A DNA stretch of 32,488 nucleotides from positions 1-32,488 of the forward strand of contig JAACFG010000031.1 in the NCBI GenBank assembly GCA_009937605.1. The letters are read 5' to 3'. The position numbers and the translations under genes are program-made. Under the pieces are notes generated by a model. It did not search any database. It worked only from the letters and a program-made list of their open reading frames with translations, and was not told the origin of the DNA. Positions 7,540-20,133 of the stretch are shown piece by piece; the first letter of the stretch is position 1, and every line of letters begins with the position of its first letter. Source of the stretch: Gammaproteobacteria bacterium (GTDB lineage: Bacteria; Pseudomonadota; Gammaproteobacteria; Steroidobacterales; Woeseiaceae).

Positions 7540-9405
7540 TTGGACATTACTCGAAGGGACTTCATCAACGGTATTGCGTTGAGCGTGACGGCCGGCGGCA
7601 CATTGTCACCGCTCGAGCTTCTGGCGTCGGCCAGTCCGGGCGTATACCCACCGGAACTCGCCGGTATGCGCGGTAACCATCCGGGTTCCTTCGAAGTCGC
7701 GCACGCCCTTGTGAGAGAGGGTAATTCCTGGCCAGCACCAGCAACACTAAGCGACGATGTGTATGACCTCGTCGTGGTCGGAGGTGGCCTCTCCGGCTTG
7801 TCGGCCGCGTTCATGTTTCGCCAGCAAGCCGGGCCCAGGGCCCGCATCCTGGTACTCGACAATCACGACGATTTTGGCGGTCACGCGAAACGCAACGAGT
7901 ATTCGGTCGATGGCAAAAACATCATCGGCTATGGAGGAAGCCAATCGATCGACACGCCGGCCAGCTACTCACAGGCATCCGCGGCGCTGCTACAAGATAT
8001 CGGCATCGAAACCGAGCCTTTCTACAAGTATTTCGATCGCGAGTACTTCTCGGAGCGAGGCCTCTCGAGGGGCGTTTATTTTAGTGAAAAGGTGTACGGC
8101 CGGGACAGCGTGAATCCCGATGCGCTGCGCTCCTACGACGGTACGCGAGCCAGTGACCCGGCGAAAGTCATCCAGGACTACCCGATATCTGAAGCGGCAA
8201 AACAGAATTTCGTACAACTCCTTGATAAGCCACGCGACTATCTCCCGGGTATGGACCGGGATGAGAAGATCGCATTGATGAGGCGGATCAGCTATTCGGA
8301 TTACATGCGCGAGTACGTCGGCGCCAATGAGGAAGTTATTGCGTTTTGCCGGGACCGACTCAGAGGACTGTGGGGATTTGGCTTCGACGCCCTGTCCGCT
8401 CTTGAAGGCGCCCGCTACAGTATGCCGGGAACGGAACACCTGGACTATTCGGACGCACCTACCGCGCGCCAGGAGTTTGATGAGCCGTACATTTTTCATT
8501 TCCCCGATGGCAATGCCAGCATCGCGCGTGCGCTGGTCCGGCAACTCGTCCCCGCAGCCGTTCCCGGCGGGAAATCCATGGAAGACCTCGTGGACGCGCG
8601 AGTCGACTATGAACAGCTCGACCGCCGTTCGAACGCTGCCCGAGTCCGATTAAACAGCACCGCGATCGACGTACGCCATGTCGACGGCAGGAGCGCTGTG
8701 GATGTCACTTACGTCCGTGACGGGAATACGCAGCGAGTGCGCGGGAAGCACGTCATCCTCGCGTGCTACAACCACATGGTGCCGCATCTCTGCCCCGACC
8801 TTCCGCAGATCCAGGCCGAAGCTATCCAGGTCGCTGAAAAGATCCCGCTTGCCTACATCAATATCGTGTTGCGCAACTCGAAGGCCTTCGAGAACCTGGG
8901 GTACCACGCTTTCTACGTGCCGCAGACGGAACTGATGCACTCATTCGGTATGGACTTCCCGGTCAGTATGGGTGATTACCGGTTTGCTGAGACCAGCGCC
9001 GACCCCGTCATTGTCCACGGCTCTTTCGCAGCCACAGCGCCGGATCAGGGTCTCACTGAACGCCAGCAACACATCGTCGGGCGGCAGCGCATGTACGAGA
9101 TGACGTACCAGGATTTTGAAACCCGAATTATCCGTCAATTGAGCGGCGCACTTGGCGGCGGCGGGTTTGACGCTGAACGGGACATCGCGGCGATTACCGT
9201 GAATCGCTGGCCCCACGGCTATGCCTACGAATACAACGAACTTTACGATCCGCCGGAGTGGACGCAGCAGAACGGGCCGCATCGTATCGGCGCGGCACAG
9301 GTCGGGCGTATTTCGATCGCCAACTCCGACGCCGAGGCCTTCGCGTACGTCAATGGCGCCATCGATGCCGCGTACCGGGCAGTCAACGAACAGCTGGGTT
9401 CCTGA
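7540..9405 (+). CDS. Tat-exported FAD-dependent oxidoreductase, spermidine dehydrogenase-like
   Basis: A 621-aa flavoprotein. The N-terminus has a twin-arginine signal (TRRDFING, Arg5-Arg6, then a hydrophobic stretch to about residue 32), so it should be exported folded. A Rossmann FAD-binding motif VVVGGGLSGLSAA lies at about 78-90. A NAD_binding_8/amine-oxidase-like body follows, with a second FAD-contact region near the C-terminus (RISIANSDAEAF). Length and overall layout recall Pseudomonas SpdH (about 620 aa, spermidine dehydrogenase), but the substrate is inferred from recollection of the family only. The start is TTG at 7540, 24 bp after the alaX stop, with a GC-rich AGCGGGGTCGG upstream. 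The TTG puts the twin-Arg signal at the usual distance. Its stop abuts the stop of the convergent FAD dehydrogenase with no gap. Confidence 0.72.
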   Translation: MDITRRDFINGIALSVTAGGTLSPLELLASASPGVYPPELAGMRGNHPGSFEVAHALVREGNSWPAPATLSDDVYDLVVVGGGLSGLSAAFMFRQQAGPRARILVLDNHDDFGGHAKRNEYSVDGKNIIGYGGSQSIDTPASYSQASAALLQDIGIETEPFYKYFDREYFSERGLSRGVYFSEKVYGRDSVNPDALRSYDGTRASDPAKVIQDYPISEAAKQNFVQLLDKPRDYLPGMDRDEKIALMRRISYSDYMREYVGANEEVIAFCRDRLRGLWGFGFDALSALEGARYSMPGTEHLDYSDAPTARQEFDEPYIFHFPDGNASIARALVRQLVPAAVPGGKSMEDLVDARVDYEQLDRRSNAARVRLNSTAIDVRHVDGRSAVDVTYVRDGNTQRVRGKHVILACYNHMVPHLCPDLPQIQAEAIQVAEKIPLAYINIVLRNSKAFENLGYHAFYVPQTELMHSFGMDFPVSMGDYRFAETSADPVIVHGSFAATAPDQGLTERQQHIVGRQRMYEMTYQDFETRIIRQLSGALGGGGFDAERDIAAITVNRWPHGYAYEYNELYDPPEWTQQNGPHRIGAAQVGRISIANSDAEAFAYVNGAIDAAYRAVNEQLGS

Positions 9406-10995
9406 TTAGTCGATAGCGTCGGCCGCGGCGCGTGCGGTCAGTATGCACCCCGACAGGAACGTACCCTCCAGAGAGCGACGACCGCTTGCACCGCCGCCGC
9501 CGAAACCGGCCGCCTCACCTATTGCGTACAAGCCGTCAATCGGATTCCCCGAGGAATCGAGCGCCCTGCTGTCGAGATCTGTCTGGATACCGCCGAGACT
9601 TTTCCGCGTGACGATCCTGAGCTTGATGGCAATGAGAGGACCATAATCGAGCATCGGCTTCGGTTTACACGTGCGAATGCGATCAGAACGCCAGGCGCGT
9701 GCATGCACGATGCGGCGCAATTGATCGTCGTTCCATTGCGCCGGACCTCGACCAATATTCGCGTCGAACGAATTTACAGCCTGCGCAACATTATCGAACT
9801 TCACAAGCTCGTCGCCATCCAGCGCGTTCATTTTCTCAACGAGTTCGGGCAGAGTCTCCGCGACGAGAAAATGATCGCTCTCTTGTTGCATTTGCCGAAC
9901 CAATCGGTGGTTACCCAGCAGGGTCTCCTTCAGGAAGGAGAAAAGACGGCTGTCGCGAATATGAGGGTTATGCTCGGCACCCGATATCGCGAATTCCTTC
10001 GCAGCGATACGCCAGTTCAGAATCTGCCAGGAGTATGGCATTTCCATCTCTGACAGACGGCGGCACATCTCGTTCGTGTCGAACCCGGTAATCAATGGTT
10101 CCGGTCCGATTCGCTTCCCCGTGTGGTCCAGCCAGAGCGCTGACTTGCACGGGATCAGGCTCAAACCGTGTCCTTCAAACTGTGGCTGCGGATGGGGAAT
10201 GCCCGCCGCATAATTCCACATGTTCTCGAGATGCGTAATCGTGCCGCCGTTTGCGGCGACGACGTCGTGCATGTGCCCATCGCAGTAGGGATGAGAGCCG
10301 TTCAGGATATCCGCTGGCGGGTTTCCCCAGTACCAGTTGTCGCGGACCTTCTGCATGTTTCCGTTGATTCCACCTGTGGCAACAATTGTCTGATCGCCCA
10401 GGAACTCGTGTTCTTCCCCGGTGGCCTCGATGGTGCCCCGGCACCCGGCAATCCGCCCGCCATCCTCGACCAGGTCACTCGCCCGGCAGCCGAACACGAA
10501 CTGCAGCTTGCCAGTGTTCGGGTGCGCCGCGATAAGGTCCACGAATCGCTGAACGAGCCCAAATCCCGTACCCCACATAATGTGGTAGCGAGGCACGCTG
10601 TTGCCGGGCACATAGTCACCGCGCTCAACCCAGTTGACGGCTGGCATGAAGCGCATGCCCTTGTCGCGCAACCAGGAAAAGACCCGCCCGGCACTTTGCT
10701 CGACATAGGCTTCGGCCCAACGCCTGGGCCACGTGTCGCGGTTCGAGAATTCGGCAAATGACAGCCAGTCCGACAGGGCCAGCTCGGGCGTATCCCTGAT
10801 GCCCATGCGCTTTTGTATCGGCGTCCCTACCAGGGCCATGCCGCCAAAGGCCGTGCGCGCGAGCCCTCCGACGTGCTCTGCCGAGTGCCGGTCGATAACC
10901 GTGACCGTTTTGCCCTGTTCCAGGCATTCGTGGGCTGCGACCAGGCCGGCAATACCAGCCCCGACGATGACTATGTCACTTTGATGGCGCGCCAT
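9406..10995 (-). CDS. FAD-binding dehydrogenase, KsdD/fumarate reductase-like (PRK12834 type)
   Basis: A 529-aa flavoprotein dehydrogenase of the FAD_binding_2 family. The N-terminal FAD motif IVIVGAGIAGLVAAHE is at about 8-23, followed by the HVGGLARTAFGG region. The C-terminal GLYAIGEAAGFGGGGASG stretch contacts FAD, and an RRSLEGTFLSGC tail follows. The combination GIRDTPELALSDW plus WVERGDYVPGNSVPRYH is characteristic of the uncharacterised group related to 3-ketosteroid delta1-dehydrogenase. The true substrate is unknown. The ATG at 10995 is chosen because the FAD motif begins 8 residues later; upstream in-frame sequence to 11226 crosses the divergent cytochrome gene and is non-coding. 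Divergence from a c-type cytochrome cluster suggests, but does not prove, an electron acceptor relationship. No signal peptide is seen. Confidence 0.82.
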   Translation of the reverse strand: MARHQSDIVIVGAGIAGLVAAHECLEQGKTVTVIDRHSAEHVGGLARTAFGGMALVGTPIQKRMGIRDTPELALSDWLSFAEFSNRDTWPRRWAEAYVEQSAGRVFSWLRDKGMRFMPAVNWVERGDYVPGNSVPRYHIMWGTGFGLVQRFVDLIAAHPNTGKLQFVFGCRASDLVEDGGRIAGCRGTIEATGEEHEFLGDQTIVATGGINGNMQKVRDNWYWGNPPADILNGSHPYCDGHMHDVVAANGGTITHLENMWNYAAGIPHPQPQFEGHGLSLIPCKSALWLDHTGKRIGPEPLITGFDTNEMCRRLSEMEMPYSWQILNWRIAAKEFAISGAEHNPHIRDSRLFSFLKETLLGNHRLVRQMQQESDHFLVAETLPELVEKMNALDGDELVKFDNVAQAVNSFDANIGRGPAQWNDDQLRRIVHARAWRSDRIRTCKPKPMLDYGPLIAIKLRIVTRKSLGGIQTDLDSRALDSSGNPIDGLYAIGEAAGFGGGGASGRRSLEGTFLSGCILTARAAADAID

Positions 10996-11080
10996 TTCGG
11001 TATCCCGTACTTGTTTTCGGTTGTACGTTTGTCCAAACTCATTGGCTCCCAGATGGTGGCATTTTCGGCAAGGTCGCACA

Positions 11081-11707
11081 ATGATTTCACGACTGCATAA
11101 ACTCGCATATTTGTCCCTCCTCCTCCCCGCCCTGGCGTTGGCCGGTAACGTCGATTCCGGCAAGGAACTGTACGCTGCCTGTGCCGCCTGCCACGGTGTC
11201 GACGGTGGAGGCAATGCCGAACTCATGGCGCCCGGCGTGGCCGGTCAGTCGGAGTCGTACCTGATTCGCCAGCTCTGGGACTTTAAGAAAGGGGTTCGCG
11301 GCAAAGAAGCCGGGGACATAGGCGGAGCACAGATGGCCCCGATGGCCGCAACGCTTGTAGACGGCGACGCTATCGCTGACGTCGCAGCCTATATCGCGTC
11401 AATGCCGGCGGTCGAGCATGCCGCGACAGTAGAGGGAGACGCTGGCAACGGTCAGAAGCAGTACACAAGCAAGTGTGGCGCCTGCCACGGTGGTAAGGGT
11501 TGGGGTAACGAAGCGCTGTACACACCTCGCCTGACGGTTATTGGTGACTGGTACCTCGTGAGACAGGTTCTGAACTTCCAGGAAAGCATGCGTGGCGTTC
11601 ACGAGGATTCACAATACGGCAAGCAGATGGCGATGATGGCCAAAACTGTATCCAAGGATGAGCTGAAGGACATTGCCGCATTCCTGAATGAGCAAAGCGC
11701 CGAGTAG
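11081..11707 (+). CDS. Di-heme cytochrome c, c4-like
   Basis: A 208-aa periplasmic cytochrome with a Sec signal peptide (cleavage near ALA-GN, residue 21) and two tandem heme-binding modules. The CxxCH sites are CAACH (34-38) and CGACH (132-136). Candidate distal Met ligands are in AQMAPMA (84-89) and KQMAMMA (181-187). The layout is that of cytochrome c4, an electron carrier. I start at the ATG at 11081 because the signal peptide begins there; an upstream in-frame start at 11021 would add 20 uncharacteristic residues. The gene overlaps the next reading frame by 20 bp and begins a three-gene cytochrome cluster, divergent from the FAD dehydrogenase. Confidence 0.9.
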   Translation: MISRLHKLAYLSLLLPALALAGNVDSGKELYAACAACHGVDGGGNAELMAPGVAGQSESYLIRQLWDFKKGVRGKEAGDIGGAQMAPMAATLVDGDAIADVAAYIASMPAVEHAATVEGDAGNGQKQYTSKCGACHGGKGWGNEALYTPRLTVIGDWYLVRQVLNFQESMRGVHEDSQYGKQMAMMAKTVSKDELKDIAAFLNEQSAE

Positions 11708-12911
11708 CTTAAGGGCCCGCGCGGGCCTGTTACTCGCGCTCGTACTCAGTACTGGCGCGCTCGCCGAAGCGCCGGCGCAACTGCGTGAATACTGCCCGCC
11801 AGGCTTTGAGCTGACAGACGGTAATCGCTGCGAGCTGCGTACCCTCTACCAGAACTACGATTCCCTGCAATATGCCGGGGTCGGTGGCCCCAGGACCGGG
11901 TTGCCATCGGCGCGGGACGGATTTTCGCCACAGCAAATTGACCTGGGCCGATACCTGTTTTTCGATCCCCTGCTTTCTGCGGACAACAGCATTTCCTGCG
12001 CCAGTTGTCATCACCCGGATCTCGGTTTTTCGGACGGTCGCGCTCGCAGTGTAGGAATCGGTGGCGCCGAGGTCCGACGGGCTGCCCCAAGCTTGTGGAA
12101 TGTGGCGTTCCTGCAATCGTTCTTTTGGGACGCGCGGGCTGATTCGCTTGAACAGCAGATGGTCGGACCGTTATACGACGCGAAGGAAATGGGCAGCAGT
12201 CCGGAGCAACTGCTCGCCGAGATCGGCGGAAACGCAACCTACCGGGCGCTGTTTCGCGTTGCTTTTCCAGGAAGCGAAGGCCCGCCAACGCTGGAGCAAA
12301 TCTACTATTCGATCGCGGCTTTCCAGGCGTCATTAATCTCGTTGAACAGTCGCTATGACCGGTACGCACACGGTTACCACGACGCGCTCACAGACAACGA
12401 GAAGCAAGGCATGAATATTTTCCGTTCATTTGTTGCGCGATGCGCCGAATGCCACACACCCCCTCTGTTCACCAATCAGCAGGTCGCCGTGATCGGCGTG
12501 CCGGAGCCGGACGGCCGGCGACTGGATGAAGGTGCCGAAACAACTAGCGGCAACCCGGGCCTGCGTGGCGGGTTCAAGGTTCCGAGCCTCCGTAACATAG
12601 CGAAAACCGCTCCATACATGCACTCCGGCGCATTCGATAACCTGCGCGATGCCGCCGAGTTCTATACGCTGGGTCGGGGTCATGCCCTGCCCGAAGAAGA
12701 AAAGCCGCGCATGACGGTGCATTGGCACATCTGGGAGCCCGAACTGGCGGATCATGAACTCGACCGGCTCGTTGATTTCCTGGCGACGCTAACCGACGAG
12801 GCGTTCAAACCAGGCATTCCCGCCACGGTGCCATCCGGCCTGGCACCTGTTGGTGTCATCCCGGAGGCGCTTGGACCAAAGCCAACCATCGCAGGACTGA
12901 ACGAGACTTAA
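11688..12911 (+). CDS. Di-heme cytochrome c peroxidase / MauG family protein
   Basis: A 407-aa exported di-heme protein. A signal peptide (residues 1-26) is followed by an unusual N-terminal segment with two cysteines (Cys36, Cys48). A bacterial CCP-type domain follows, with heme sites CASCH (104-108) and CAECH (252-256) and the family motif TAPYMHSGAF (307-316). At the position after this motif where classical peroxidases place a heme-ligand Met, this protein has Tyr326 (DAAEFY), as in MauG. By inference it may be an oxidative maturase or a variant peroxidase more than a simple H2O2 scavenger. The ATG at 11688 lies inside the 3' end of the cytochrome c4-like gene (20-bp overlap), suggesting coupled translation. 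The beta-helix cytochrome follows after 9 bp. Confidence 0.86.
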   Translation: MSKAPSSLRARAGLLLALVLSTGALAEAPAQLREYCPPGFELTDGNRCELRTLYQNYDSLQYAGVGGPRTGLPSARDGFSPQQIDLGRYLFFDPLLSADNSISCASCHHPDLGFSDGRARSVGIGGAEVRRAAPSLWNVAFLQSFFWDARADSLEQQMVGPLYDAKEMGSSPEQLLAEIGGNATYRALFRVAFPGSEGPPTLEQIYYSIAAFQASLISLNSRYDRYAHGYHDALTDNEKQGMNIFRSFVARCAECHTPPLFTNQQVAVIGVPEPDGRRLDEGAETTSGNPGLRGGFKVPSLRNIAKTAPYMHSGAFDNLRDAAEFYTLGRGHALPEEEKPRMTVHWHIWEPELADHELDRLVDFLATLTDEAFKPGIPATVPSGLAPVGVIPEALGPKPTIAGLNET

Positions 12912-12920
12912 GGAAGGAAC

Positions 12921-14417
12921 ATGGGGAAGAAGCTATTACAGATCATCGTGGCAATCGCATTGCTCGTTGCAGGCATTGTCGTCGGAACGAAGTTCGCGGG
13001 CGATAACCGTGCGACGGTTGTGGGTGACGCGTCGCGCTACAGCAATGCGACTGGCAGCGGTGGGCTGCTCACCCGTTCGGTGGGCGGCTCGAGCACGGGT
13101 ACCGTGCACGACGTACGTGATGGCAACTCAATTCAGGCAGCGGTTGCAGCAGCGGAGCCCGGCGACGTGATCCGAATATTCCCGGGCACATACACCGAAA
13201 CGGTCTACATCGACAAGGACGACATCGTACTCAGCGGCGTTGTCGTTAACGGGCAATGGCCCGTCATGGAAGGCAACAAGGAACTCAATGATGCCGTGCT
13301 GTACTCAGGCAACGACATAACGGTCGAGAACCTGCAAATACAACACTACAAGGGCAACGCTGTCATGGGCCAGGCAGGTAACAACTTCCTGATCCGCAAT
13401 AACAACATAATCGACACCGGCGTCTACGGGATCTTTCCGGAATTTGGCACAAATGGCCTGATAACTCACAACGTTCTTAGCGGCATTGAAGACGCCGCCA
13501 TTTACGTGGGTATGAGTGACAACATCCACGTCACGAACAACGAGGTATTCGACAATGTCGCCGGCATCGAGATCGAGAATTCGCGCCACTCGATCGTCGA
13601 GAATAACTACGTCCACGACAACACAGGCGGCATCCTGGTATTTATCACTCCCGGACTGCCGATCAAGACGACCTTCGATACGATCGTTCGCAACAACTTC
13701 ATTGTGAATAACAACACGCCGAACTTCGGTATCCCCGGTTCTACCGTGGCGGGCATACCCGCCGGTACCGGCATTCTCAATATGGCGGGCGATCAGACAA
13801 CGATCGAAGGTAATGTCATTACCGGCAATAAGGTTATCGGTATCCTGATTACGGACCATATGAATGCACCCAATGTCACGCTGGATCCGGGCGCAGACCC
13901 AAGTTCCGATGAAATCGCCATTCTCGACAACATGATGTGGAATAACGGCTACGACACGATTCCCGAAATCAAAGCTCTCAAAACACTCGAACTCGTCGAT
14001 GGCAACGTCGAGATTCTCAACGTCGGCGCAAGTGCGAACAGCTGCATTCTCGACCCTGACAAGTACATCACTGTCGGCCTCAAGAGCTTCGGAACCTGCG
14101 GTTTCGCGACCACAGCCGACGTCAGCACGTACCTGCTGGATGAGCCGGCACAACGGCGCGAGATCGCGGCCGAGGATATGGGCAAGCGCGCCTACTACGG
14201 CGTCTGCGCCGGCTGCCATTCGTACAACATCAAGATGGTCGGGCCACCGACTCAGATCATCCAGGCCCTGTATATGGACAACCCGCAGGGAATCGTCGAC
14301 TACATTACGAGTCCGACGAAGAAGCGAGACGACTACCCCGAGATGCCACCGCAAAATTATCTCTCCGAGGACGTCAGGATGGCGGCAGCCGAGTTCATGT
14401 TGCAGGTCAAGCAGTAG
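12921..14417 (+). CDS. Parallel beta-helix repeat protein fused to a C-terminal cytochrome c
   Basis: A 498-aa exported or membrane-anchored protein. The N-terminal hydrophobic helix (about 5-25) has no obvious cleavage site. Residues about 65-380 are right-handed parallel beta-helix repeats of the NosD/pectate-lyase fold, with many NN/N-x-I turns (IRNNNIID, VTNNEVF, VENNYVHDN, IEGNVITGN). The C-terminal 85 residues are a class I cytochrome c: CAGCH (429-433) and a probable Met ligand in PEMPPQ (Met475). The beta-helix part resembles an exported family I recall as TIGR03805; its biochemical function is unknown to me. It is the third gene of the cytochrome cluster, 9 bp after the MauG-like gene, with GGAAGG as ribosome-binding site. 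It could be a polysaccharide- or surface-binding electron-transfer protein, or a partner of the MauG-like enzyme; neither is shown by sequence. Confidence 0.82.
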   Translation: MGKKLLQIIVAIALLVAGIVVGTKFAGDNRATVVGDASRYSNATGSGGLLTRSVGGSSTGTVHDVRDGNSIQAAVAAAEPGDVIRIFPGTYTETVYIDKDDIVLSGVVVNGQWPVMEGNKELNDAVLYSGNDITVENLQIQHYKGNAVMGQAGNNFLIRNNNIIDTGVYGIFPEFGTNGLITHNVLSGIEDAAIYVGMSDNIHVTNNEVFDNVAGIEIENSRHSIVENNYVHDNTGGILVFITPGLPIKTTFDTIVRNNFIVNNNTPNFGIPGSTVAGIPAGTGILNMAGDQTTIEGNVITGNKVIGILITDHMNAPNVTLDPGADPSSDEIAILDNMMWNNGYDTIPEIKALKTLELVDGNVEILNVGASANSCILDPDKYITVGLKSFGTCGFATTADVSTYLLDEPAQRREIAAEDMGKRAYYGVCAGCHSYNIKMVGPPTQIIQALYMDNPQGIVDYITSPTKKRDDYPEMPPQNYLSEDVRMAAAEFMLQVKQ

Positions 14418-14421
14418 TCGC

Positions 14422-14442
14422 ACTCGATTAATCGAGTACAAT
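14422..14442 (+). promoter_or_regulatory. Perfect palindrome and -10-like TACAAT upstream of the P5C dehydrogenase gene
   Basis: ACTCGATTAATCGAGT (14422-14437) is a perfect 16-bp palindrome. It runs directly into TACAAT (14437-14442), followed by a GC-rich GCGGCGC stretch typical of a discriminator. No good -35 is present, which would fit an activator- or repressor-controlled promoter for the aldehyde dehydrogenase gene starting at 14482. The regulator is unknown. Confidence 0.45.
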
Positions 14443-14481
14443 GCGGCGCTCCAGACTCGGCACTATCTGCAGGTATTCAAA

Positions 14482-16068
14482 ATGACAACATCGTGGAAAA
14501 CATTCGCGACGGTCGACCCGTTCTCGGGAATGACCGGCAAGGCACCCGGCCAGTTACAGAACCTCGTCAACGGTCAGTGGGTGGATGTGCCGAACTATCG
14601 CGACGATATCGTCGACCCGATGAATGGCGAGCGCTTCCTGAACGTGCCCGACACGCAGGACCTCGCGGCGTTTATCGAAGGGCTCGAAAGCTGCCCGAAA
14701 TCCGGGTTGCACAATCCCCTGAAGAATAACGATCGTTATGTGCATCTCGGCCGGGTCTGTGCGCGAGCCGCGGCATTGCTGGCCACGGAAGAAGTCGAAG
14801 AATATTTCACCAAGCTGACGCAGCGCGTCATGCCCAAGAGTTGGCAACAGTGCCTGGCTGAAGTCCGCGTTACCCGCGTCTTTCTCGAGAATTTCGCGGG
14901 CGATGGCGTGCGCTTTCTCGCGCGCGGCTTTTCGAATCCAGGCGATCATCCGGGTCAGGAATCTCGAGGTTATCGCTGGCCTTTCGGGCCGGTTGTCGTT
15001 GTCGCGCCGTTCAACTTCCCGATAGAAATTCCGGCATTGCAGACGATGGGTGCGCTGTTCATGGGAAACCGACCGCTCGTCAAAGTCGATTCGAAAGTCA
15101 GTGCAGTCTTTGAGCAGTTCCTTCGCTTGCTGATCCACTGTGGGCTCGATTCCGCAGATCTCGACTACGTGCACTGCCGCGGCAGCAAGATGGGCGAGCT
15201 CATTACCGAAGCGGCGGACACAATCCGGCTCGCCCAGTTCACCGGATCTAGCACCGTTGCTGAACGCGTGTCAGAAACGCTTAATGGCCGCGTGCGGCTC
15301 GAAGATGCAGGTTTCGACTGGAAGATCATCGGCCCCGACTTCGACGCAGACTGGCTCGACTACGTCGCCTGGCAATGCGACGAGGATGCCTACAATGCGA
15401 CCGGCCAGAAATGCTCGGCGCAAAGCGCCCTGTTCGTGCACGAAAACTGGGCGGACAAACTACTGCCGATGCTCGGCGAACTGGCATCGCGACGCAGCCT
15501 GGACGACCTGACCACAGGGCCCATCCTGTCGTGGACGAATGACCAGATCAAATCGCATATCGATAGCGTACTCGCGGTCGAAGGCACAAAACTCCTGTTC
15601 GGCGGCAAGGCCCTGACCGGCCACGCCATCCCCGAGTGCTTCGGAGCGTATGAGCCCACGGCGATTCGGGTACCGATCGCGGCCATGCAATCGGGCGACT
15701 TCGATTTGCTGGCAAAAGAGCTATTCGGACCCTTCCAGATCGTAGTCACCTACGGCGACAACGATCTCGATGCCGTCCTCTCGATGTTCGAGCAGATGCA
15801 GAATCACTTGACCGCTGCGATCGTCAGCGCAGACGTCGGGTTCCAGAACCGGGTTCTTGGCATGACCGTGAACGGGACGACCTATGCCGGGATGCGCGCC
15901 CGTACGACCGGCGCGCCACAGAATCACTGGTTCGGACCAAGCGGCGACCCGCGCGGTGCCGGTATTGGTACGCCGGAGGCCATCCAGGTGACCTGGAGCG
16001 CGCATCGCGAGATCATTTCGGACCAGGGGCCTCGACCCGAGGGTTGGACTACGCCGCCAGTCAGGTAA
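14482..16068 (+). CDS. Aldehyde dehydrogenase, ALDH12-type 1-pyrroline-5-carboxylate dehydrogenase
   Basis: A 528-aa NAD(P)-dependent aldehyde dehydrogenase. The active site shows Asn178 in APFNFP, Glu274 in RLEDAG and nucleophile Cys311 in GQKCSAQS. Stretches such as GYRWPFGPVVVVAPFNFP, LVKVDSKVS, AQFTGSS and LEDAGFDWKIIGPD match the plant-type P5C dehydrogenase family ALDH12 more closely than the PutA or RocA types. It would oxidise glutamate semialdehyde to glutamate, the second step of proline catabolism. The ATG at 14482 gives the normal family N-terminus; the longer frame from 13999 is the out-of-frame shadow of the upstream gene. No proline dehydrogenase gene is in the window. Glutamate dehydrogenase, which would take the product further, is encoded 1.3 kb away on the other strand. 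Confidence 0.88.
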   Translation: MTTSWKTFATVDPFSGMTGKAPGQLQNLVNGQWVDVPNYRDDIVDPMNGERFLNVPDTQDLAAFIEGLESCPKSGLHNPLKNNDRYVHLGRVCARAAALLATEEVEEYFTKLTQRVMPKSWQQCLAEVRVTRVFLENFAGDGVRFLARGFSNPGDHPGQESRGYRWPFGPVVVVAPFNFPIEIPALQTMGALFMGNRPLVKVDSKVSAVFEQFLRLLIHCGLDSADLDYVHCRGSKMGELITEAADTIRLAQFTGSSTVAERVSETLNGRVRLEDAGFDWKIIGPDFDADWLDYVAWQCDEDAYNATGQKCSAQSALFVHENWADKLLPMLGELASRRSLDDLTTGPILSWTNDQIKSHIDSVLAVEGTKLLFGGKALTGHAIPECFGAYEPTAIRVPIAAMQSGDFDLLAKELFGPFQIVVTYGDNDLDAVLSMFEQMQNHLTAAIVSADVGFQNRVLGMTVNGTTYAGMRARTTGAPQNHWFGPSGDPRGAGIGTPEAIQVTWSAHREIISDQGPRPEGWTTPPVR

Positions 16069-18804: not shown

Positions 18805-20133
18805 ATGAAGAAACCTGAATTGCTCTCCCCGGCGGGCACGCTCAAGAACATGCGCTTCGCGTTCGCGTACGGTGCGGACGCGGTCTATGCCGGCCAGCCG
18901 CGCTACAGCCTGCGCGTGCGCAACAACCAGTTCAGCAAAGAGGACATCCTGGCCCAGGGCATCGAGGAGGCACACGCCGGCGGGAAGTTGTTCTTCCTGG
19001 CCAGCAATATCGCGCCACACAACAACAAGCTGAAGAGTTACATTCGCGACCTCAAACCGATCATCGAGATGGGGCCTGATGCCCTGATCATGTCGGACCC
19101 CGGCCTCATCATGATGGTGCGGGAGTCATTCCCCGATGTGCCGATTCATTTGTCAGTGCAGTCCAACGTCGTCAACTTCGCATCCGTGAAATTCTGGCAG
19201 GCGATGGGACTGACGCGCATCATCCTGTCACGTGAGCTATCCCTTAAGGAAGTGCGACAGATCCGCGAGGAATGCCCGGACATGGAGCTCGAGGTTTTCG
19301 TGCACGGGGCACTCTGTATCGCCTATTCGGGCCGTTGCCTGCTGTCCGGCTACATGTCTCATCGCGATTCGAATCAGGGTGCGTGCACGAACTCCTGCCG
19401 CTGGAAATACAATGCCCAGGAAGCTCGGGAAACCAGCACCGGCGATGTCGCACCGGTCATGGTGGACCCCGCAGAACTACCCGTAGCCCTGCTCGAGGAA
19501 GAAACCCGCCCGGGCGAGTTAATGCCGGCCTACGAAGACGAGCACGGCACCTACATTATGAACTCGCGCGACCTGCGTGCCGTGCAACATGTGAAAGAAC
19601 TAACGGAGATGGGTATCGATTCGTTGAAGATCGAGGGCAGAACCAAGTCGGCCTACTACACCGCACGCACGACGCAGGTCTATCACCGCGCGATCGAGGA
19701 TGCCGCTGCTGGCAACGAGTTCGATATGGGCATGATGGAGGAGCTCGAAGGTCTCTCGAATCGCGGTTACACAGAAGGGTTTTACCGGCGTCACCCGCCT
19801 AAGGAATACCAGAACTACGAACAGGGCGCTTCGACATCCGACCGCCAGCAACTCGTGGGTGAGGTCCTGGACATCAATGACAGGCACCTGACGATTGACG
19901 TCAAGAACAAGTTCATGAAGGGCGACCTGATGGAGCTCGTGATGCCGTCAGGAAACGTGACGTTCGAACTGCACGAGCTCATCGGCAAGGACGGCAACGC
20001 CGCCGATGTCGCACCGGGATCCGGCCACATTGTGAAAATCCCCGTGCCAGCCAATGCCGACACGGGGACTATTGACGAATTCGCGATGCTCGTTCGTTAT
20101 CTGCCGAGACTCGCGGAACCTGCAACTACCTGA
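18805..20133 (+). CDS. trhP: tRNA 5-hydroxyuridine modification protein TrhP (peptidase U32 family, YegQ)
   Basis: A 442-aa U32-family protein that is nearly collinear with E. coli YegQ/TrhP (about 453 aa). The N-terminus KPELLSPAGTLKNMRFAFAY, the central MGPDALIMSDPGLIM and SRELSL segments, and the C-terminal SDRQQLVGEV region all match. The conserved cysteine cluster (Cys171, Cys178, Cys194, Cys198 in the region around GRCLLSGY and NQGACTNSCRW) is intact. TrhP takes part in prephenate-dependent hydroxylation of U34 in tRNA, the first step of cmo5U/mcmo5U formation; the 'peptidase' label is historical. The ATG at 18805 matches the family start. Its stop overlaps the convergent asnA stop by 8 bp. 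Confidence 0.93.
   Translation: MKKPELLSPAGTLKNMRFAFAYGADAVYAGQPRYSLRVRNNQFSKEDILAQGIEEAHAGGKLFFLASNIAPHNNKLKSYIRDLKPIIEMGPDALIMSDPGLIMMVRESFPDVPIHLSVQSNVVNFASVKFWQAMGLTRIILSRELSLKEVRQIREECPDMELEVFVHGALCIAYSGRCLLSGYMSHRDSNQGACTNSCRWKYNAQEARETSTGDVAPVMVDPAELPVALLEEETRPGELMPAYEDEHGTYIMNSRDLRAVQHVKELTEMGIDSLKIEGRTKSAYYTARTTQVYHRAIEDAAAGNEFDMGMMEELEGLSNRGYTEGFYRRHPPKEYQNYEQGASTSDRQQLVGEVLDINDRHLTIDVKNKFMKGDLMELVMPSGNVTFELHELIGKDGNAADVAPGSGHIVKIPVPANADTGTIDEFAMLVRYLPRLAEPATT

Follow-up and report, generated by a model that had tools for sequence, protein, structure and literature searches.

To our knowledge, very few partners are known for the diheme enzymes of the MauG class. MbnH (TIGR04039; PDB 6e1c) works with the partner protein MbnP, and its client is modified on tryptophan. 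According to a published account, tryptophan is also the residue modified in the client of MauG (TIGR03791; PDB 3l4m); the same account names a Met-His ligated heme as the mark of the bacterial cytochrome c peroxidases, and describes BthA of Burkholderia (PDB 6nx0) as a diheme enzyme with a Tyr-His heme that lies outside a mau operon, carries a Ser between the hemes and reduces hydrogen peroxide, H2O2 (PMC6405878). Beta-helix proteins have in turn been found coupled to c-type cytochromes in the TIGR03805/TIGR03806 pair, in which TIGR03806 is the SO2930-family diheme cytochrome. The present analysis concerns three adjacent genes that bring these themes together, located at 11081-14417 of a stretch of 32,488 nucleotides from a marine gammaproteobacterium of the Woeseiaceae (hereafter the window). 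The window is one whole contig (JAACFG010000031.1; C225) of a 3.1-Mb genome in 232 contigs that is 86.6% complete (GCA_009937605.1; G000), and the nearest named relatives by beta-helix sequence, in a scan of one genome per species, carry the title Woeseiaceae. The three genes, with lengths in amino acids (aa), are:

11081-11707, forward strand: c4-type di-heme cytochrome c carrier (208 aa, two CxxCH motifs, Pfam Cytochrom_C and Cytochrome_CBB3)
11688-12911, forward strand: MauG/MbnH-class di-heme enzyme (407 aa, two CxxCH motifs, CCP_MauG)
12921-14417, forward strand: beta-helix protein with a C-terminal cytochrome c domain (498 aa, Beta_helix, TIGR03805, one CxxCH motif)

This unit adds a clearly defined set of MauG-class enzyme and partners, lacking the usual tryptophan target, in culturable Gammaproteobacteria, and it links MauG-class enzymes to the uncharacterised TIGR03805 beta-helix family. 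Its nearly fixed three-gene composition makes its function directly testable. In the literature searched, whose coverage excluded most subscription journals, no work was found that treats at least three of beta-helix, cytochrome c peroxidase, TonB-dependent receptor and cytochrome c4 together; TIGR03805 is named there and TIGR03806 is not.

Conservation of the three genes

Gene order and co-occurrence across genomes leave very little doubt that the three genes form an operon and are co-inherited, the enzyme with the heme-bearing beta-helix protein and nearly always with c4, in an arrangement that is far beyond chance. The genes for c4 and the enzyme overlap by 20 bp (11688-11707), and a gap of 9 bp (12912-12920) separates the enzyme gene from the beta-helix gene. 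The initial annotation, made from the letters of the window alone, had described three tightly packed cytochrome genes with this overlap and gap, and its coordinates are right.

Two genome samples were searched, an order sample of 396 genomes and a phylum sample of 398, with an alignment of four close orthologs as the query for the beta-helix protein (at most three candidates scored per genome) and an alignment of 39 enzymes as the query for the enzyme. The beta-helix search yields two score groups, one in which the match includes the cytochrome domain (some members being cut by contig ends) and a weaker one confined to the beta-helix. The heme-bearing group was delimited at more than 239 bits in the order sample, where the next score is 143, and at more than 561 bits in the phylum sample (next, 164); the enzyme subfamily was delimited at E <= 1e-100, the lower bound of the matches listed, in the former, and in the latter it scores 633 bits against 252 for the next match. 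Defined in this manner, the two subfamilies occupy identical sets of genomes, 30/30 of 396 and 7/7 of 398, the P values for this identity being calculated without regard to relatedness. The heme-bearing beta-helix group comprises 36 genomes (30 of the order sample, including the window's, and six further ones of the phylum sample), and each of the 36 loci (L035-L070) has a MauG-like gene on the upstream side of its beta-helix gene. Among the genomes that hold both proteins is one outside the class (G722), and another (G330) holds two enzymes and two heme-bearing beta-helix genes, paired on the same contigs. The c4 gene adjoins the pair in 34 of the 36 genomes: it was seen in 30 of the short loci, and longer stretches added four more, one of them cut by a contig end.

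A second set, formed by the best 80 loci of 402 relatives with one genome per species and thus biased to close relatives, contains a MauG-like match in 78/80 loci and c4 in 74/80. Pseudomonas, Microbulbifer, Simiduia, Bowmanella, Rheinheimera, Colwellia, Thalassotalea, Shewanella, Halioglobus and HTCC2143 are among its members. Of the 74 loci of this set whose upstream sequence extends for 2.4 kb or more, 73 keep the order c4 - enzyme - beta-helix. Under strict spacing criteria for both genes, 68 of these 74 pass; four others (L097, L111, L132 and L173) have both genes, with an overlap due to a beta-helix start that was called too early, and of the remaining two, L153 is a fusion of c4 and enzyme and L105 is without both genes. 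Distances in the three alignments correlate at 0.79, 0.54 and 0.71; calculated without a control gene, these values show co-inheritance only. The suggestion in the initial annotation that the three cytochrome genes could be an exported redox system agrees with this order and co-occurrence, and the absence of co-occurrence in other genomes that would have refuted it there was not seen.

Some variants of the locus are worth recording. In G272, which carries a divergent version of the unit, a gene of 332 aa (L224:3960-4958) lies between the enzyme and beta-helix genes, and in G184, of the same genus, a 229-aa protein with a CGTC motif (L222:3744-4433), similar by inspection to DsbA-type thioredoxin folds, replaces c4 upstream of the enzyme. 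The beta-helix gene of L105 adjoins what appear by inspection to be nitrate-respiration genes, and similar genes lie downstream in the Microbulbifer locus L101.

The three proteins and the TIGR03805 family

The comparisons place the enzyme on the MauG/MbnH side of the diheme superfamily. It matches Pfam CCP_MauG (E 7.5e-52), and its best curated model is that of MbnH, TIGR04039, at 221.7 bits (cut-off 362.85), followed by that of MauG, TIGR03791, at 189.8 bits (cut-off 443.85); both matches are below cut-off, and both models are matched at E 0.001 by all 39 subfamily members scanned. The profile score of BthA is lower (116.5 bits). The conserved residues were counted in alignments that consist of the window's sequence and those called as open reading frames (ORFs) in the 80 loci (80 beta-helix, 75 enzyme and 73 c4 sequences). 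The hemes of the enzyme are placed at C104-C107-H108 and C252-C255-H256, both motifs being present in 76/76 rows, as are Trp147, located between the hemes, Trp137, Cys36, Cys48 and Glu167. Tyr326, again in 76/76 rows, aligns with MauG residue 294, an axial ligand (the title of PDB 3orv names Y294H-MauG), and with a Tyr of MbnH, while the Nitrosomonas peroxidase has a Met in that stretch of the profile alignment. By sequence, then, the enzyme has a complete MauG-type diheme site, with the predicted acid-base Glu heme, inter-heme Trp and Tyr-His heme.

Each of the described relatives differs from this enzyme in some respect. MauG has in common with it the Tyr-His six-coordinate heme, the inter-heme Trp and the acid-base Glu, and its Trp199, the surface Trp that serves electron hopping (W199 variants are named in PDB titles), corresponds to Phe248, found in all but at most one of the 76 rows. 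MbnH belongs to the same superfamily and has the axial-position Tyr in common, but its partner is MbnP, in contrast to a beta-helix cytochrome without conserved Trp, and the present enzyme has its own N-terminal Cys extension and an HWH signature. This signature (His345-Trp346-His347) is found in 76/76 rows and in none of the 12 other MauG-like proteins aligned; the extension holds Cys36 and Cys48 and has no counterpart in the PDB searches, where matches begin at about residue 78. Bacterial cytochrome c peroxidases carry a Met-His high-potential heme where the aligned position is here Tyr in all rows. BthA resembles the enzyme in having a Tyr-His heme outside a mau operon, but has Ser where Trp147 is invariant here (PMC6405878). 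A Pfam scan of 19 proteins of the window showed no mau or nos genes. The MbnP model TIGR04052 is not matched in the window's genome, which is 86.6% complete, and is matched over its cut-off in 5 of 15 unit-bearing genomes, always on contigs other than that of the unit; MbnP was accordingly rejected as a missing client.

The carrier is a cytochrome c4, having two c-type hemes, the tandem-domain layout and similarity to solved c4 structures (6q2u, E 2.5e-17; 1etp, E 2.8e-17), in addition to the Pfam Cytochrom_C match (E 5.6e-23). The Cys and His residues of its hemes (C34-C37-H38 and C132-C135-H136) are kept in 74/74 rows. Its likely Met ligands are M85 and M183, both in 74/74 rows, or M186 (71/74) in place of the latter, and a signal sequence is predicted at its N-terminus; by inspection, all three proteins bear an N-terminal export signal or membrane anchor. 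In one locus, whose record is titled Myxococcaceae bacterium and is placed by that title, c4 and the enzyme form one protein of 594 residues (L153:8070-9851), which retains the signal sequence of c4 and has lost that of the enzyme. The divergent second copy of G330 holds another fusion (L228:1783-3672), in which a 630-residue frame contains four CxxCH motifs. In view of these two fusions, a transfer of electrons between the carrier and the enzyme is likely. The initial annotation had suggested that electrons pass between the carrier, the MauG-like enzyme and the beta-helix protein.

The third protein matches Pfam Beta_helix (E 3.3e-18) and TIGR03805 (173.9 bits; cut-off 141.5), and its C-terminal cytochrome domain weakly matches Cytochrome_CBB3 (20.9 bits, below the model's 27). 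A helix at residues 2-25, which the structural model suggests is a membrane anchor, is followed by a right-handed beta-helix (approximately 59-396) and by the C-terminal heme site C429-C432-H433, for which Met475 is the likely ligand. The AlphaFold model has a mean predicted local distance difference test (pLDDT) score of 82, with 30 of the 35 ten-residue blocks between 51 and 400 above 85, and is weak in the cytochrome domain (34 and 43 in the blocks of 431-450). Its closest folds are alginate epimerase/lyase modules (Z of about 31 over about 280 residues, 18-20% identity; VIA-align); the match to AlgE6 gives Z 31.5 and a root-mean-square deviation of 2.2 over 282 residues, and that to NosD gives Z 27.6. 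The right-handed beta-helix is common to the A-modules of AlgE4 and AlgE6 and to NosD, structural alignment giving sequence identities of 18% and 16%, and the NosD model TIGR04247 is matched at 54.2 bits, below its cut-off of 300. The A-modules of alginate C5-epimerases and NosD are not known to have a heme domain or a membrane anchor. By sequence profile, the solved relatives (21 matches up to E 1) are all cytochromes save one weak pectinesterase.

The same type of beta-helix is found, according to profile matches, with two unrelated cytochrome modules. Main-branch TIGR03805 proteins in relatives score 421-437 bits, as compared with 173.9 for the window's protein, and none of the 34 examined contains a CxxCH motif; 43 positions, Y169 and Y195 among them, are common to the heme-bearing version (conserved in 95% of 40 rows) and the 34 main-branch proteins (90%), which makes it probable that the beta-helix has one and the same function in both versions, each time with different cytochromes. 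All five main-branch neighbours scanned score over the TIGR03806 cut-off, and TIGR03806 is the only gene with two CxxCH motifs in these five loci, no MauG-class gene being seen nearby. Of 60 relatives, 11 have TIGR03806 over cut-off, and a high-scoring TIGR03805 occurs in these same 11 and in no others. The unit differs from this pair in having a cytochrome fused to the beta-helix, and c4 and a MauG-class enzyme as partners. TIGR03806 exceeds its cut-off in none of the 36 unit-bearing genomes and has no match among the operon proteins. With at most three candidates scored per genome, no genome was found to hold both beta-helix versions (30 and 54 of 396, P 0.010; 7 and 32 of 398, P 0.55, relatedness being ignored), which is only suggestive of mutual exclusivity. 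With one type of beta-helix served by two unrelated cytochrome modules, the study of one may explain both.

TIGR03806 was also considered as a distant relative of MauG and of the beta-helix cytochrome, and rejected in both cases (hhalign probability of only 7% against the enzyme and 4.5% against the beta-helix cytochrome profile). Matches to it of 260-280 bits (cut-off 313.3), in frames of 757-958 aa, occur in 10 of the 36 unit-bearing genomes, including G250, G342 and G131. In a relative (G051; L031:9281-13868), a beta-helix protein with two CxxCH motifs has as its neighbour a protein of 901 aa that combines beta-propeller repeats with two CxxCH motifs of its own, which is possibly a third arrangement of beta-helix and cytochrome.

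Possible function of the unit

We tentatively favour, at somewhat less than even confidence, the view that the enzyme oxidises a ligand held by the beta-helix, using peroxide or O2 and served by dedicated carriers. In this proposal c4 would carry electrons to or from both the respiratory chain and the enzyme, and the enzyme would be brought to a high-valent diheme state by H2O2 or O2. Anchored in the inner membrane, the beta-helix protein would dock with the enzyme, and a small or glycan-like ligand in the conserved groove of the beta-helix would be oxidised, the fused cytochrome domain passing electrons between the ligand site, the enzyme and c4. The beta-helix would then be a redox partner that presents a substrate, as opposed to a protein matured on Trp. 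We infer the direction of electron flow, the oxidant and the substrate; electron transfer among the three proteins is suggested by the strict co-inheritance of enzyme and beta-helix together with the two fusions. The surroundings of the operon are those expected where a ligand is imported and sensed: in 63 loci outside the Woeseiaceae-like ones, each with 3 kb or more of sequence preceding c4, a TonB-dependent receptor lies within 2.6 kb upstream of c4 in 36, an AraC-type regulator in 29, and either of them in 45. These receptors have a median identity of 43%, and the three that were scanned match no curated model over cut-off, the best NCBIfam match being a siderophore model, below cut-off.

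Several observations weigh against this proposal. The c4 gene, the least constant of the three, is replaceable: even in longer stretches it was not found beside the pair in G184 and G722, and it was therefore rejected as an invariable part of the unit. An additional beta-helix cytochrome gene in Microbulbifer sp. NKW57 (L105, 5331-6869) has no adjacent enzyme or c4, and in G272 and the second copy of G330 about 1 kb separates the enzyme and beta-helix genes. Neither the receptor gene nor the regulator gene adjoins the operon in the window or at L107, a Pseudomonas locus, and these genes are evidently not part of its core. Finally, a beta-helix fold held in common shows no function, and the structural model of the enzyme is only of medium quality (pLDDT 72).

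The principal rival, which we consider rather unlikely, is that the enzyme is a periplasmic H2O2 reductase fed by c4 and the beta-helix cytochrome, with the beta-helix serving to dock or anchor it. The superfamily is that of the bacterial cytochrome c peroxidases, the operon supplies two dedicated cytochromes, one of which is fused to the enzyme in two loci, and BthA turns over H2O2 in spite of its Tyr-His ligation (PMC6405878). However, a plain peroxidase needs no beta-helix partner so strictly co-inherited (30/30 and 7/7), and the canonical Met-His heme is replaced by Tyr throughout the alignment (76/76).

Less probable still is a reading that goes back to the initial annotation, where electrons were suggested to pass perhaps so as to oxidise or modify the beta-helix partner. 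Here the enzyme would modify that protein covalently, for example on an invariant Tyr, and build a cofactor or metal site, by analogy with MauG and methylamine dehydrogenase or MbnH and MbnP. That MbnH and MauG are the nearest models to the enzyme, that a Tyr is the axial ligand and that inheritance is strict with one partner protein would agree with such a role, and six Tyr columns of the beta-helix protein (Y91, Y143, Y169, Y195, Y435 and Y451) are invariant in 81/81 rows. Yet no alignment column has Trp in at least half of the rows of either possible target (81 beta-helix, 74 c4), which makes a MauG/MbnH-type modification of Trp in either protein unlikely, and the hopping Trp199 of MauG is replaced by Phe248. 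Moreover, the main TIGR03805 branch shares the 43 conserved positions, and no MauG-class gene is seen near five of its loci. The absence of conserved Trp in the partners, and the occurrence of the same beta-helix type elsewhere with another cytochrome and no MauG-class gene seen nearby, are the reasons for which ligand oxidation is favoured over maturation; the proposed modification is thereby weakened as regards Trp, and a Tyr-based modification of the beta-helix protein is conceivable.

It is improbable that the unit, in a manner analogous to MbnH/MbnP, oxidises a metal or heme complex that the TonB-dependent receptor linked to it imports. Among named families MbnH is the closest, the receptor is within 2.6 kb in 36/63 loci, a siderophore model is, below its cut-off, the best match of the three receptors scanned, and the beta-helix resembles NosD in fold, but MbnP lies on other contigs in the five unit-bearing genomes where it exceeds its cut-off and has no match in the window's, the receptor match is generic and the metal site would be hypothetical.

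Beyond the oxidation of a held ligand, it is possible, though doubtful, that the unit represents a new kind of periplasmic oxidation machine, in which a high-valent diheme enzyme of the MauG class would not modify tryptophans of a single client protein but oxidise ligands presented by a dedicated membrane-tethered beta-helix cytochrome, and c4 would close the circuit; the TIGR03805/TIGR03806 pair would be this machine equipped with another cytochrome module. It is also conceivable that a tyrosine-derived cofactor is built in the beta-helix.

Neighbouring genes

Upstream of the operon the window contains two further features:

10996-11080, no strand: divergent intergenic region of approximately 85 bp between the KsdD-like gene and the operon, presumed from sequence reading to be the location of the promoter
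9406-10995, reverse strand: KsdD-like dehydrogenase binding flavin adenine dinucleotide (FAD), a neighbour outside the unit (NF009472, 517.7 bits)

The longest ORF call of the KsdD-like gene, 9406-11226, extends 146 bp into the c4 gene. Its start is likely the ATG at 10995, since the family match begins only at residue 81, and it is this start that leaves about 85 bp between the divergent genes. A promoter scan found no sigma-70-like site in 10996-11080, and over 10900-14560 the numbers of sigma-70 promoters and terminators found (1 and 3) compare with 1.9 and 3.3 expected by chance.

The divergent KsdD-like gene reported in the initial annotation does exist, its NF009472 score exceeding the cut-off of 476. 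As a fourth member of the unit it does not hold: neighbourhood conservation had been envisaged for all four genes, and the three cytochrome genes do recur together, but the KsdD-like gene is beside them in only 8/80 loci, all Woeseiaceae-like and close to the window. The aldehyde dehydrogenase and HAD genes (6 and 4 of 80 loci) are likewise rejected as parts of the unit, all occurrences of the three genes being within the eight loci closest to the window.

Tail to tail with the KsdD-like gene lies the gene of a 621-aa protein that binds FAD and nicotinamide adenine dinucleotide (NAD) (NAD_binding_8; window 7540-9405), which matches no NCBIfam model over cut-off. A U32 peptidase gene is located 4.4 kb downstream of the operon (window 18805-20133), and a homologue of it occurs 3.6-4.7 kb upstream of the beta-helix gene in the Microbulbifer loci L101 and L102.

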